From the NCBI GenBank assembly GCA_018806915.1, contig JAGKQI010000064.1, positions 1,302,001 through 1,366,000 of the forward strand: DNA of 64,000 nt. The letters are read 5' to 3'. Every line of letters starts with the position of its first letter. Position 1 is the stretch's first letter. The position numbers and the translations under genes are program-made. Under the pieces are notes generated by a model, which saw nothing but the letters and a program-made list of their open reading frames with translations, searched no databases and was not told the origin of the DNA. Below, piece after piece: positions 52,138 through 57,407 of this stretch. Source of the stretch: Phytophthora colocasiae (lineage: Eukaryota > Oomycota > Peronosporomycetes > Peronosporales > Peronosporaceae).

Positions 52138-53460
52138 TCGCTCCGGTAGCTTTTACGTCGAGAAGGAATGATGCGGAAATGGAATCTTCAAAAACGTACT
52201 TTCATCAAGCATACAAAAATCAAGAGAACCGATTAGAGGTAATAGAGAGATCTGTACAGATTCTACACATACACAGGATGTGTGTGTTCAGGTACCGTAC
52301 CGTAACGACGTGCCGTAGGAATCTGTTGACGAGTTACAGCTTATTGCATTTTTTTCTGTGATGATGCTAGGAAGTTGTGGGTGAAGTACATGTACTTCGA
52401 AGTGTATTCGAAGTACAGAAACACAGACGCAACGCACTCAGCGCCAAAGCGTTTGACATAACCGAAACATGCATAGAAATCGGTCTGAGCCGAAAATCAA
52501 GAGCTAACGTAACGATACCTATGGAAAATCTCAAACAACCACGGAGCCACTACAATACAATGTACATGCAGCAACGTAGAACAGCAGAAAACCTGTTTTC
52601 GAAGATAAACAACAACCCCACGAAGGCTTTGATGTTGTAAAATCGAACCACGAAATAGTGAGCTACACAAACCAATGCTGGTTGTCAGCGATCAATTGAG
52701 CGGTACGTAGTTGTTGAGACTGCCGTGGCCACATGTCGGGGGTCTAAAGACTGCGGACTGGAATTGTTGATACGTGGATTGGTGAGTAACCTTCGGTTCC
52801 CACTGATGAAAGGTGATTGCAAAAGTGTTCACCTTCTTATAATGCCTCCCCTCCAATTATACCGCGACTTCGACGAATGTCAGCTTACCACCTTGTACAC
52901 AGCCGCACTTGTCGATTCTAATTGTACAGCGACAAACTACAGCTCATGGTACACTGTAAAAGGACTACAGTGTACTTAAGTATCACAGTCTAGGAGAGCT
53001 GCGGCTATCCAAAGAAAATTACCAGTTGAGGCACGCGCTTGATTCAGGAAATGAGATCTTGATTTTCTGCCACACTCGCACTGCGTCATTTCAAGCGACG
53101 GCGGAGATTACATGAACCGGTGATACCGGTCCGATGTACACTGGCAAAGTGTGGCACTGCACCGTCGCATGTTATTAAGCACTGAAAGCTCTCACTGAGA
53201 GCCTCTCACTACACGGCCGTTGAGAACCATCTTCGACTACGTGTCTTCGACTACGTGTTCCATGCCTTACGTGTTCGTCTTGTTTGTCTGTAAAGACTAC
53301 CTCTACCGCTCTCGCGCATGCTGCACTGGGCCCGCATGTTGGCTTGGATCCGATCGATAGGATATCGCCTGCTGTCTGGTTCAACAAAATGGCTTCGAAT
53401 GAGCTGTTCCATAAAAAAAGCAGATTAGATTAGATTTGCTTCCGTTACAGAAATCCTAAC
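52138..53460. other. Intergenic region, no gene recognised
   Basis: No coding potential seen. A 16-bp palindrome, GAAGTACATGTACTTC, lies at 52383-52398. The end nearest the Fanzor gene is AT-rich with short T/A runs and may include the outer end of that element. Confidence 0.5.
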
Positions 53461-53530
53461 AAAAAGCTAGCTAGCTAGCTTCTGTCGCTTCCACGCTGTA
53501 ACCCGTGGTGTTCAAGCTGTCCCTGTCGTT
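53461..53530 (-). ncRNA. Candidate guide-RNA scaffold 3' of the Fanzor ORF
   Basis: Directly downstream of the Fanzor stop, the minus strand folds into nested stems. An outer AGCTT...AAGCT encloses an inner CCACG (53508-53504) paired with CGTGG (53495-53491) around an 8-nt loop. GCTAGCTAGCT follows. TnpB and Fanzor systems take their omega RNA from the 3' end of the ORF and the adjoining non-coding sequence, with the guide at the outer end. Position and strand fit; the fold is short and unproven. Confidence 0.35.
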
Positions 53531-55619
53531 AATGATCCGTCGATAATGATCCAGCACAGACAAACCTGAGAATGTTGAAGGCAGCGTTGACATCTCTCCC
53601 CGCAACGTGATCACAATGGGGGCAATGAAAGACATCTCTGCTGCCGAGTTTGAGGTGGAGTCTGGAGCACCGCCCACATGTCTGACTCGTGTACATCTCC
53701 GAGCAGACGATAAGGCTTTTCCCCATCAACTCGCACTTGGCCTTCAGAATCTGCCTAAACTGGAAATGCTTGAGGCCCAGCAGCAACCGGTTGAAGGTGT
53801 GGTTCCGAGCAGTACTTTTCTTCACCATATCCTTTGAACTGAAGACAGGGAGGATAATAACGTCGTACGTCTTCGTCAGGTAAGCTGCCGCCTGGTAATG
53901 CATCTCCTTCACGGCTTGTTTCAGTTTTGCCGTAGCGCAGTGGAATGCACGCTTGGCTCTCGCGAACACTCGCCACTGCCGCCCGGACCGATGTCCCTTG
54001 AAGTTTTTAATGAGCGCCATCTCTCTTTGGGCATCGATGATCCTGGATCGATATCCGTCTAGATGCTCTCTCGTTCCACGGCCGACGTGAAGGACATTTC
54101 CATTTAGATCCACTCCAGTCATGAACGCCTTCACCCCTGGGTCTAGTGCGATCACTCTGCCGTGGTAGGAGTACTCATTCGGGCAGTACGCTTGCGGAAT
54201 AACGGCGTACCAGAAGCCGTTCGTGTTGGTGATCTGGATCTCGTTGGTGATAACGACACTAGGATCGCAGCGGATCGGGATACCCTTCAGCTTCGAGATG
54301 GATAGTAAAGCTCGCTGACCCCTTCTGTGTTGAATTGTTGCGTGTGATGCATCCTCACAAAAGGTAAAGTAGCGTCCGTCTCTCTTTCGACTCTTGAATC
54401 GAACTTTGAACTTCTTGATGTTCCCAGCAGACAGGTTGCTAAACGCGCTCTTCACATTGCTCTCAAACTTGCGCAGCGCATTGAATCGTAAACTCTTTGG
54501 CGTTTCAAAAGCCCATTGCGGTGGCGGCTCCATCCCCTCGGGGTACACACGCTGTTTATTCGATGCTTGGGTTACATAGAGGTCCCTCAGAGTGGCTGCT
54601 TTAGACACATTCGTCGCTCGGAAGTGAGCCACCGCTTGATTGTAGGTCCAGCGACACGTCCCCATATAGCGTATGAGCTGTTGGCGCTGTTTGGTAGTAG
54701 GGAAAAGTCGGTATTTGCGCATGCGTGTTACCACGAGTTTATCTTGGGCTTTCAGCTCACGTCGTATGGCCGATGCAGCCTCGATGTCGTCTGCATGGTC
54801 CGTTGCGTTGCATTTGAGGACGTTGATAGTTGCTGTGTACCTCGAAACTTCAGCTGTCCTTTCAGTCTTGGATTCAAACGCGACTCGCTTGCTCTCCTGC
54901 TTTTCTCGATCGCACGGCCACCTTGCTGTATTGTCAAAATATTCTACGGAGAACAAGGACTGCGTCTGCTAATCGATTTTCTGTTGTCTCTGGAACGCGA
55001 ACCACGGTTTCGGCTCCAAGATGTCCTCTGCAGGTAGTAAGTCGTTTAGCCTCTGCGAATCAAAGAAGCTATCCAGACGGTCGATACGGTCGACCGGGAC
55101 TTTGGCAAGGAGCGGTCTAAATTCTCGCACATGACCGAGAATCACGTGAGCAGCAACACGACCAAGCAGTTTATCTACGCGACCGTTCATATCGCGTATC
55201 TGCAGCGCCCGCGCCTCCGGGTCTGCTTCGTCCTTTATGTCCTCTTGGGTGTACACCTTCAATGCGTCTAACGTATTCTCGAGGTCGCCCTCGCTAGTGG
55301 TAGCGCACTGGCGTAACGCCAACCACCCGATAGTCCGCCACCTAAGAATGGCTCTCATCCGGACAGCTAAACACAGCTTAGCATCACTCACGTGAACGAA
55401 GATTAGGACGCGCACTTGTTGCATGATATCGCGAATGTGTCTGCGCAGGTCTGACCAGCCTGCTCTGCGTCGTGGAACCTTGCGTGGAAGAGCATCTAGC
55501 GTGTCACCCATCGGCCGAGTTCGGCGGGTGAGTGCTTGACTTTCTTTATCGGGAGGACTGCACTCAGAACAAGTTTCGTCGGGAGGGCGGTGGCAGGTGC
55601 TTGAGGGTGGTGATCCCAT
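53529..55619 (-). pseudogene. Fanzor (eukaryotic TnpB-like RNA-guided nuclease), one in-frame stop
   Basis: One minus-strand frame runs from ATG 55619 to TGA at 53529-53531 (about 696 codons) with a single TAG at 54971-54969. The C-terminal 475 codons are TnpB-like. They have an N-terminal MRKYRLFPTTKQRQQLIRY plus CRWTYNQAV, RuvC-I ALDPGVKAFMTGVD, RuvC-II, a zinc ribbon CGRC...CPHC and RuvC-III GRDVNAAFNILR. The usual RuvC-II Glu is replaced (IILPVF), but a Glu 49 residues on (VCSEMYTSQTC) is present; this is the rearranged active site reported for Fanzors. The first 216 codons (with RRHIRDIMQQVRVLIF and a helical ENTLDALKVYTQED) are an N-terminal extension of unknown role. The stop may be a true mutation or a sequencing error, or be avoided by splicing or internal initiation. 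Confidence 0.85.
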
Positions 55620-55973
55620 GGAGGAGAATTGAAGACTGAGACATTCTCAGCTCCTGCCCATTAGTCCTTGGTCCAGAGTTCAATGATGCTCACCACTTTG
55701 GTCTAGCGTCATCAAGAATGTTCCACGGCCTATGTTCTCACCAATGGAGACTGTGTCGATGCACGTGACTGTAACGAAGGAAATCGAAGTGGGTAATGGT
55801 CATCAACTCAAGAAGCTCATCCCAACGTTGGTGGTACATGTACATGTTCACATCGACGACGTATTAACTGAGCTGCACGACTGGAGCCACTCACGTTGCA
55901 AGACGAGAGTTGGCACGTAAGAGGCGATGTAGCTCCGCATGTACAGTACATCGCAGGAAAAAAAACCGTGATC

Positions 55974-57407
55974 ATGATTTACAATCTGGAAATGCTCGAC
56001 GCTCATTGGCTGACGCATGTAGCAGCCGTTAGATCTCTCCGAATCGAGGGGCGGACGTACGCGCCGCCCTTCGGAGCCATTCCTCCTTCCTCCTCGTCGA
56101 GCTCAAGCAAGAAGCAACTGGAACCAATGGTTATGGGTATCATCTCCGCCGGAATGGGCGCAACCAAGGCGCTGCTGAGTTTCTATGGCTCTCTGCTGCA
56201 CTACTGGGTGCGTCGCGGCAGCTACGCCGAATGCCCCTTCTTCTCAGACGACCTGCACGCCAAGACGTACGTGTACTCGATCGCGCTGCTCAACCCGCTG
56301 TGGAGCCAGCCGCACTACCGTCATCCGAGCTTCTACAAGGACCTGGTCACTAACCTGCGCAACGTGGCGATCCCTGGCACGGGTGTGCCGCTCTCGATCG
56401 TGAGCTACTCGCGCCTCATCCTCTTCCCCTTCTTGGTCTTCGTGTACCCCTGGCTGTGCGCCATTGGCGCCTTCTTCGAGCTGCCTAAGGAATACTCGAA
56501 CAAACAAGGCTGCATCATTGAGCGCTTCCTGCGCACGTTCACGCAGATCTTCGTGTGCCCGCAGAACTGGTTCGCCTTCTGGCGCGTCAACTGCCACGTG
56601 GTGAGTCTGCACAGCCTCAAGACCAACTCGCCCGGATACATCATGGAGAACAAGTGGGACTTTCTTATTGAGTCCGAGAAGAACGGCATCGCTGTGTCGC
56701 CCTACCTCAAGACGCCTGGCTCGCTGGTCATTAAGGACCGCAACGAGGAAGGCGGAATGGGCATTTTCATCTTCAAGAACGCCGTGGACGGTGGCGACTG
56801 GATCATCCAGGAGAAGCTCGACAACTCGCCATTTCTCAAGAAGCTGCTTCCGGAGGTGTCGCCTCTGTCGACCTTCCGTATCATCACTGCCTCGCGTCAC
56901 GGCCTGGGAGAAGCGGAGGCGCTCAAGGACGGTGGCAACGGTGTCAAGTCGCTCAGCTGTGTGTTCCGTGCCGGTTTGGCGGGCGCTGCTACGGACCACA
57001 AGTCGATCATGTTCGACGTAGACATGGAGTCGGGCAAGATCCTCAAGGGCTCCACCACTACGCACTGGTACCGCGTCGGCCCGCACCACATGTTCCGCGG
57101 CAACCTCAGCGTGGGCCATGACATCACCAACCACCCCGACACGGGCGTCCCCATTACCGGCAACGTGATCAAGGACATTAAGCAGATGAAGGAGCTCGCC
57201 GAGGAGGCCCACTTCAAGCTCATGAAGGACGTGCCGCTGTGTGGCTGGGATGTGGCCATCACGAACCTGGGTGTGCTACTGCTGGAGGTCAACATTTCGT
57301 GTAACTTCTTCCGCGGCACGTTCGACCAGCCCTGGTACTTCCAGTTCCTGGACGACTACTTCCGCCACCTCGAGAAGCTTCCCACGCCCGCGAAGAAGAC
57401 CAACTAA
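55974..57407 (+). CDS. Sugar-transfer-associated ATP-grasp domain protein
   Basis: About 477 residues from ATG 55974; a TTG 78 bp upstream keeps the frame open and later Met codons are also possible. The first half has hydrophobic stretches (RLILFPFLVFVYPWLCAIGAFF), suggesting membrane attachment. The second half is ATP-grasp-like: DWIIQEKLDNSPFLKKLLP, STFRIITA, a glycine-rich GTSTT-like strand (ILKGSTTTHWYRVG) and GWDVAITNLGVLLLEVN, which carries the terminal magnesium-binding E and N. These features fit the sugar-transfer-associated ATP-grasp family, whose members sit with glycan-modifying enzymes; the substrate is unknown. High GC at third positions suggests strong expression. Confidence 0.7.
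   Translation: MIYNLEMLDAHWLTHVAAVRSLRIEGRTYAPPFGAIPPSSSSSSSKKQLEPMVMGIISAGMGATKALLSFYGSLLHYWVRRGSYAECPFFSDDLHAKTYVYSIALLNPLWSQPHYRHPSFYKDLVTNLRNVAIPGTGVPLSIVSYSRLILFPFLVFVYPWLCAIGAFFELPKEYSNKQGCIIERFLRTFTQIFVCPQNWFAFWRVNCHVVSLHSLKTNSPGYIMENKWDFLIESEKNGIAVSPYLKTPGSLVIKDRNEEGGMGIFIFKNAVDGGDWIIQEKLDNSPFLKKLLPEVSPLSTFRIITASRHGLGEAEALKDGGNGVKSLSCVFRAGLAGAATDHKSIMFDVDMESGKILKGSTTTHWYRVGPHHMFRGNLSVGHDITNHPDTGVPITGNVIKDIKQMKELAEEAHFKLMKDVPLCGWDVAITNLGVLLLEVNISCNFFRGTFDQPWYFQFLDDYFRHLEKLPTPAKKTN

Follow-up and report, generated by a model that had tools for sequence, protein, structure and literature searches.

A probable Fanzor2 element copy with a predicted pseudoknotted guide-RNA end in Phytophthora colocasiae

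A nuclease core and an upstream frame parted by one stop codon

The window (the whole stretch of 64,000 nucleotides analysed here) carries on its minus strand an open reading frame (ORF) of 475 amino acids from a TTG (53529-54956), which contains ALDPG, ILPVF, SEMYTSQTC, a C4 zinc ribbon and GRDVNAAFNI. An upstream minus-strand ORF of 216 amino acids from an ATG (54969-55619) lies in the same frame. Pfam matched the 475-amino-acid ORF with PF07282 (5.1e-19) and PF12323, HTH_OrfB_IS605 (1.9e-10), far beyond chance; the RuvC-I, zinc-ribbon and RuvC-III motifs of the TnpB/Fanzor superfamily announced in the preliminary description are indeed present on this strand. The same description treated 53529..55619 as one protein and mentioned neither the stop codon nor the right end with its predicted guide RNA (below). 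The two parts do share a frame, but the whole is not a single open frame because an in-frame TAG parts the upstream frame from the core (Table 1); the core itself has neither stop nor frameshift. A neighbouring plus-strand ORF (55896-57407) matches the sugar-transfer ATP-grasp domain PF14397, and, with its start placed mechanically at a TTG, it overlaps the element's left end.

Table 1. Features of the locus, in window coordinates
Feature	Position	Strand	Basis
Fanzor2 mobile element, from the right end at 53442 to a left end placed approximately at 55,920-55,939	53442..55920	-	Copy ends, collinearity with copy C56
N-terminal extension: the 216 codons that open the Fanzor2 gene, counted from the ATG	54972..55619	-	Paralogs, dN/dS, profile matches
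In-frame TAG interrupting the frame of the window copy; five paralogs open here	54969..54971	-	Paralog alignment
Fanzor2/TnpB core, 397 amino acids from in-frame ATG 54720-54722 (MRKYRLF...); stop codon 53529-53531	53532..54722	-	ORF, Pfam, AlphaFold2 mean pLDDT 87.2
HTH_OrfB_IS605 segment (PF12323)	54627..54728	-	Residues 77-110 of the 475-amino-acid frame
RuvC-I Asp (ALDPG)	54141..54143	-	Alignment
Pro in the place of the canonical RuvC-II Glu (ILPVF)	53847..53849	-	Alignment
Alternative RuvC-II Glu (SEMY)	53697..53699	-	Alignment
C4 zinc ribbon (CGRC ... CPHC)	53613..53678	-	PF07282; position counted on the translation
RuvC-III Asp (GRDVN)	53592..53594	-	Alignment
Conserved right end, predicted guide-RNA (reRNA/omegaRNA) scaffold	53442..53516	-	Copy alignment
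Hairpin CCACG-GGTTACAG-CGTGG; loop GTTACAG (53496-53502) complementary to the 3' end	53491..53508	-	Complementarity
Predicted pseudoknot 3' strand CTGTAAC, followed by GG (53442-53443)	53444..53450	-	Complementarity
Flank just beyond the right end, predicted guide start of the window copy	53422..53441	-	Right-end position and IS607/Fanzor2 precedent (PMC10711439, excerpt)

The protein carries the Fanzor fingerprint

Fanzors, eukaryotic kin of the CRISPR nucleases, are recognised by a DPG motif at RuvC-I together with a RuvC-II Glu moved from its canonical place to six residues before the zinc finger (PMC10711439; this and later statements from PMC10711439, PMC3627910 and PMC10432273 refer to excerpts of those papers). 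In the window protein RuvC-I reads ALDPG, and the zinc ribbon is followed by the RD of RuvC-III, the Asp of which is found in 29/29 aligned sequences. As first described, the canonical RuvC-II column holds a Pro (ILPVF), and the Glu of SEMY aligns with that of the mimivirus Fanzor2 9b0l. This Glu is relocated as proposed, although the aligned distance from the Pro is 50 residues and not 49; six residues separate it from the first zinc-ribbon Cys, which matches the alternative Glu position (Ealt) of Fanzors. Glu occupies this column in 65 of 72 aligned relatives, the other seven being truncated or aberrant frames, and in 68/68 sequences of the chosen tree set; D, E and D are invariant in 29/29 (alignment A5). 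In the predicted core model the candidate residues lie at strand ends and at a helix start, and the RuvC site would be formed by the D of ALDPG, the alternative E of SEMY and the D of GRDVN. Because DPG plus the alternative Glu defines Fanzors and the Glu column is conserved, the relocation is, from the aligned sequences, the rule in this group, already known and not new. The published precedent invoked in the preliminary description exists (PMC10711439), but it deserved less weight than it was given there, since the trait defines Fanzors.

The window family is Fanzor2-like

When the family profile (A2) was searched against the PDB, 9b0l was the best of 29 sequences (6.6e-62); a designed TnpB-like nuclease came next at 1.9e-34, and natural TnpBs also ranked behind 9b0l. 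With the single window protein as query, the designed nuclease 9yyg stood slightly above 9b0l (2.3e-13 vs 1.1e-12). The predicted core model matches the TnpB/Fanzor2 fold, a match that does not separate TnpB from Fanzor2.

The tree (68 sequences, 458 columns, LG+F+R5) took four Fanzor1s from this genome as an arbitrary root, with no canonical-Glu outgroup, and sampled 22/32 relative proteins, 16/34 distinct viral and 20/80 cyanobacterial ones, incomplete proteins being left out. The window family grouped with sequences of P. nicotianae, P. citrophthora, P. oleae and Nothophytophthora (support 100) and next joined two unnamed proteins (support 100), apart from the four Fanzor1s. Among named proteins, the closest relatives come from P. 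citrophthora (88% identity across 344 residues) and P. nicotianae (69% across 545), together with Nothophytophthora. Further afield, cyanobacterial and viral relatives also share the fingerprint; the viral and cyanobacterial tree sequences were fetched by the ALDPG pattern, therefore their DPG is not independent evidence, and their Glu is. A viral-contig scan with P0015 gave one locus, with a match limited to 68 residues.

A TDG motif in the WED domain is a Fanzor1 feature (PMC10711439). It is absent from the window core and from five full-length paralogs, and was seen by eye in this genome's four Fanzor1 frames. Fanzor1 chains were found neither among the 29 PDB profile matches nor among the 50 fold-comparison rows listed, which is no argument against kinship. 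The window family is thus Fanzor2-like on sequence grounds, and the Fanzor identity first proposed is borne out by DPG, the alternative Glu, the zinc ribbon and the placement by profile and tree. In one P. citrophthora gene model, P0004, Pfam shows a fragment of a Fanzor2 core fused with a protein kinase domain, probably an annotation artefact.

The N-terminal extension belongs to the same gene

Over 2,091 bases the window copy is 97.4% identical to copy C56, with no indels and one in-frame stop, at codon 217. C56 and four further copies read open across the join between the N-terminal part and the core, and the N-terminal dN/dS is 0.24-0.45 in the 6/15 paralog pairs without saturation. Because five paralogs are open through it, and given these dN/dS values, the upstream 216-codon frame is, as the paralog sequences indicate, part of the same Fanzor2 gene and under purifying selection. 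That it could instead be an unrelated neighbour gene or a chance frame is suggested by the stop that parts both ORFs in the window copy, by the absence of a Pfam match in the upstream ORF and by several database gene models that start further downstream. We regard this as very improbable: five paralogs hold both parts in one open frame, the N-terminal dN/dS points to constraint, and a Nothophytophthora protein of 709 amino acids (P0008) contains the N-terminal part as well as the core. The paralogs refute a chance or neighbouring gene, barring transcripts that splice the upstream part away. An intron excising the stop, also considered, is unneeded in the open copies.

The stop has consequences for the window copy, the product of which is therefore either absent or, at most, the 397-residue core begun at the internal ATG. 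A shortened, core-only Fanzor2 made from this ATG might still work. TnpBs of about 400 residues act alone, the ATG sits where TnpBs usually begin (8h1j, from residue 6 on, aligns with residues 1-391 of the core model), and the core is open throughout, with just 3 non-synonymous and 6 synonymous changes relative to C56. However, the divergence between the window copy and C56 is too small to reveal selection on the core alone, and several related copies are plainly decayed; we consider a living core-only gene improbable. The best reading is that the window copy is disabled or reduced to its core.

The extension was said to be unlike any known domain and possibly lineage-specific. The former agrees with the Pfam search of the 216-amino-acid ORF, which gave no match; two longer N-terminal stretches had best E-values of 0.15 and 0.12, below the cut-off. 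Lineage specificity fits only part of it. All 12 matches to an N-terminal profile came from Phytophthora or Nothophytophthora, some covering the later part alone, and the unnamed protein P0011 aligns with the extension from residue 46. In the predicted model of a full-length paralog, residues ~202-298 fit structurally onto the N-terminal part of the mimivirus Fanzor2; residues 1-200 are modelled with low to middling confidence and were barely probed by the fold comparison. Residues ~148-254 weakly resemble two unnamed proteins, with hhalign probabilities of 67 and 48, and hhalign found no N-terminal similarity to a second Fanzor2 family of this genome (family B, below). Among the literature matches listed, all open-licence papers, none described a guide RNA or an N-terminal domain for an oomycete Fanzor2. 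Residues ~1-200 thus look lineage-specific in sequence, and intact relatives of 661-696 residues consist of these ~200 N-terminal residues, ~100 shared with mimivirus Fanzor2, and the TnpB-like core.

Copies and derivatives in the genome

The assembly from which the window comes (G000) has 92.5 Mb in 105 contigs. The 475-amino-acid query matched at least 72 stretches of it, some of them decayed or split copies and some distantly related ones. The N-terminal part and the core form one open frame in five copies: C56 (696 amino acids), one on C42 at 186.6-188.6 kb (683, or 714 if an upstream ATG is used) and three C100 copies of 661 each. The right-end pattern GTTACAGCG-N(32-60)-CTGTAACGG occurs 25 times in the genome, and the reversed pattern not at all. 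Fourteen of the 25 right ends adjoin whole genes or larger gene remains; the other 11 are short derivatives without a full gene, with ~0.3-0.6 kb common to each other. A protein search at these 11 found a core fragment alone at nine and nothing at two, and the longest stop-free frame within ~1.5 kb upstream of any derivative was 344 codons.

Some copies lie close together: several within about 105 kb at C36:374-477 kb, seven within about 330 kb at C100:2.06-2.39 Mb, and an inverted pair 10 kb apart at C42:186-200 kb. The C56 copy is collinear with the window copy from 55920 to 53442, with 59 substitutions. Of these, 44 crowd into 600 bp (about 55,320-54,720), and synonymous sites diverge by 0.103 in the N-terminal part vs 0.023 in the core; the sequences suggest gene conversion, that is, a mosaic. 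A donor for the 55,320-54,720 patch was sought and could not be told.

The right end resembles a pseudoknotted guide RNA

In 14/14 distinct copies aligned (17 rows), homology stops sharply after CTGTAACGG and is followed by divergence; two further C36 copies match only the first 74 and 79 of 105 end bases. The loop GTTACAG of the hairpin is the reverse complement of the terminal CTGTAAC, and this is retained in both subfamilies and in the derivatives. The pseudoknot was tested on 20 distinct right ends (22 entered, 23 located), the structure having been drawn from those same sequences. Each of the seven pairs of the pseudoknot is preserved in 100% of cells, and six of the seven never vary. Two pairs outside the pseudoknot change on both sides, a number reached by 140/500 shuffles, and the number of pair types was equalled by 390/500; the covariation score and the percentage paired were reached by 0/500. 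Slid structures pair 25-40% of cells vs 95.2% for the structure drawn from these sequences. The folding energy of the right end is no better than that of shuffles (z -0.33), and Rfam gave no match to it. In 6/7 family B loci the layout is the same but the letters differ, with GCCTT in the loop and AAGGC as the terminal strand. At L017:3013-3058 the right end and its flank are tandemly duplicated, with two CTGTAACGG ends 45 bp apart.

Such a pseudoknot is present in the reRNA of IS607 TnpB and of Fanzor2, and the activity of ISXfa1 TnpB requires it (PMC10711439). By analogy, we infer that the right end would be transcribed into a pseudoknotted guide-RNA scaffold, the 5' start of which may lie inside the gene, with the guide coming from the flanking DNA. 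The protein would use this RNA to cut matching DNA beside a short motif. TnpB and Fanzor nucleases are proposed to cut the empty site so that repair restores the element, and cutting by the present protein would let repair act in this way.

Element ends and mobility

Left ends are poorly conserved among copies. Direct repeats of 10-12 bp starting with GG flank 4/24 copies (C56, C6, C57 and C10b), compared with 0.13 expected when flanks were swapped; two duplicate copies were left out of this count, and GG is counted in the repeat length. The repeats of C56 and C10b overlap sequence that is also found at other left ends, and the left end in Table 1 is therefore approximate. In the window copy the longest match between the right flank and the left side is 5 bases. 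Terminal inverted repeats were sought between the outer 80 bases of each end, in C56 and in the window copy, where the longest exact match was 5 bp, the left end being uncertain. The recombinase search covered the PF00239 family: no resolvase-type TnpA was matched in 92.5 Mb, and the same search was positive in 10/14 control genomes.

These observations bear on whether the locus is a classical IS607-type Fanzor2 element, inserted at GG by a TnpA serine recombinase without target duplication, with TnpA supplied externally or recently lost. Bao and Jurka place Fanzor2 in IS607-type elements (PMC3627910), the right ends here finish in GG, and the cyanobacterial and viral relatives that share the fingerprint belong to proteins tied to IS607 in PMC10711439. 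Against this stand the absence of PF00239 matches from a search that succeeded in most control genomes, and the direct repeats, since serine-recombinase elements create no such duplication according to the excerpt of PMC3627910. We hold the classical arrangement to be unlikely and do not file the element as IS607; it is best read as a Fanzor2 element outside the classical IS607 setting, though its poorly conserved left ends make any assignment of element type tentative. More speculatively, and with little confidence, the lineage may have lost the IS607 recombinase yet still spread: the N-terminal domain would aid DNA entry or target choice, and RNA-guided cuts at GG with staggered repair would make the 10-12 bp repeats and move derivatives in trans.

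Interpretation and comparison with known systems

The locus is probably (about 0.8) a ~2.5 kb copy of an oomycete Fanzor2 element with a predicted pseudoknotted guide-RNA end, the intact relatives of which would perform RNA-guided cutting. Phytophthora Fanzor2s were already recorded in 2013 (PMC3627910), and a relocated Glu is to be expected in any Fanzor. What is added is a family with five open full-length genes, many decayed copies and a well-defined right end; its short derivatives retain the predicted guide-RNA end, its proteins bear an additional conserved domain at the N-terminus, and an IS607-type recombinase was not detected. With these features combined, two questions can therefore be addressed in one organism, namely how Fanzor2s persist outside IS607 elements and what role the variable N-terminal regions of Fanzors play.

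Mimivirus Fanzor2 (L79, PDB 9b0l) has the same core fold, DPG, alternative Glu and zinc ribbon, and superposes from residue 202 of the paralog model with 18% structural identity, whereas the first ~200 residues of the oomycete protein have no aligned counterpart. Some mimivirus Fanzor2 elements bear TnpA (PMC3627910), in contrast to the oomycete genome with its lack of PF00239 matches. Fanzor2 of P. sojae, P. capsici and P. ramorum, one family each, comes from the same group of organisms (PMC3627910, Table 1); compared by description only, the excerpt of that paper describes no N-terminal domain, guide RNA or ghost copies for them.

The Fanzor2* of Chloropicon and Mercenaria are Fanzor2s captured by non-IS607 transposons (PMC10711439). 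They resemble the present family as Fanzor2 lineages outside a TnpA-bearing IS607 element, in the reRNA pseudoknot (predicted here) and perhaps in a target duplication within the scaffold (PMC10711439); unlike it, they have terminal inverted repeats together with target duplications, compared here with an inverted match of at most 5 bp and direct repeats at 4/24 copies. Spu-1 of Spizellomyces is likewise multicopy, with a transposase not found in the element and ~0.55 kb ghost loci keeping the omegaRNA end (PMC10432273), which the 11 derivatives recall; it differs in being a Fanzor1 with 30-nt inverted repeats and an RNA without a pseudoknot (PMC10432273).

Within the same genome, family B (L001-L007) is a second Fanzor2 family with its own right end (...AAGGCG) and four loci with open frames of 517-669 residues. 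Its members (L004, L007 and others) share the alternative Glu, the zinc ribbon and the right-end layout, but are 23% identical to the C56 protein, form a separate low-support branch and have an N-terminus that is not alignable. Fanzor1 genes with TDG and open frames of 711-780 residues lie at L110-L113, and the genome therefore has Fanzor1 and two Fanzor2 families.
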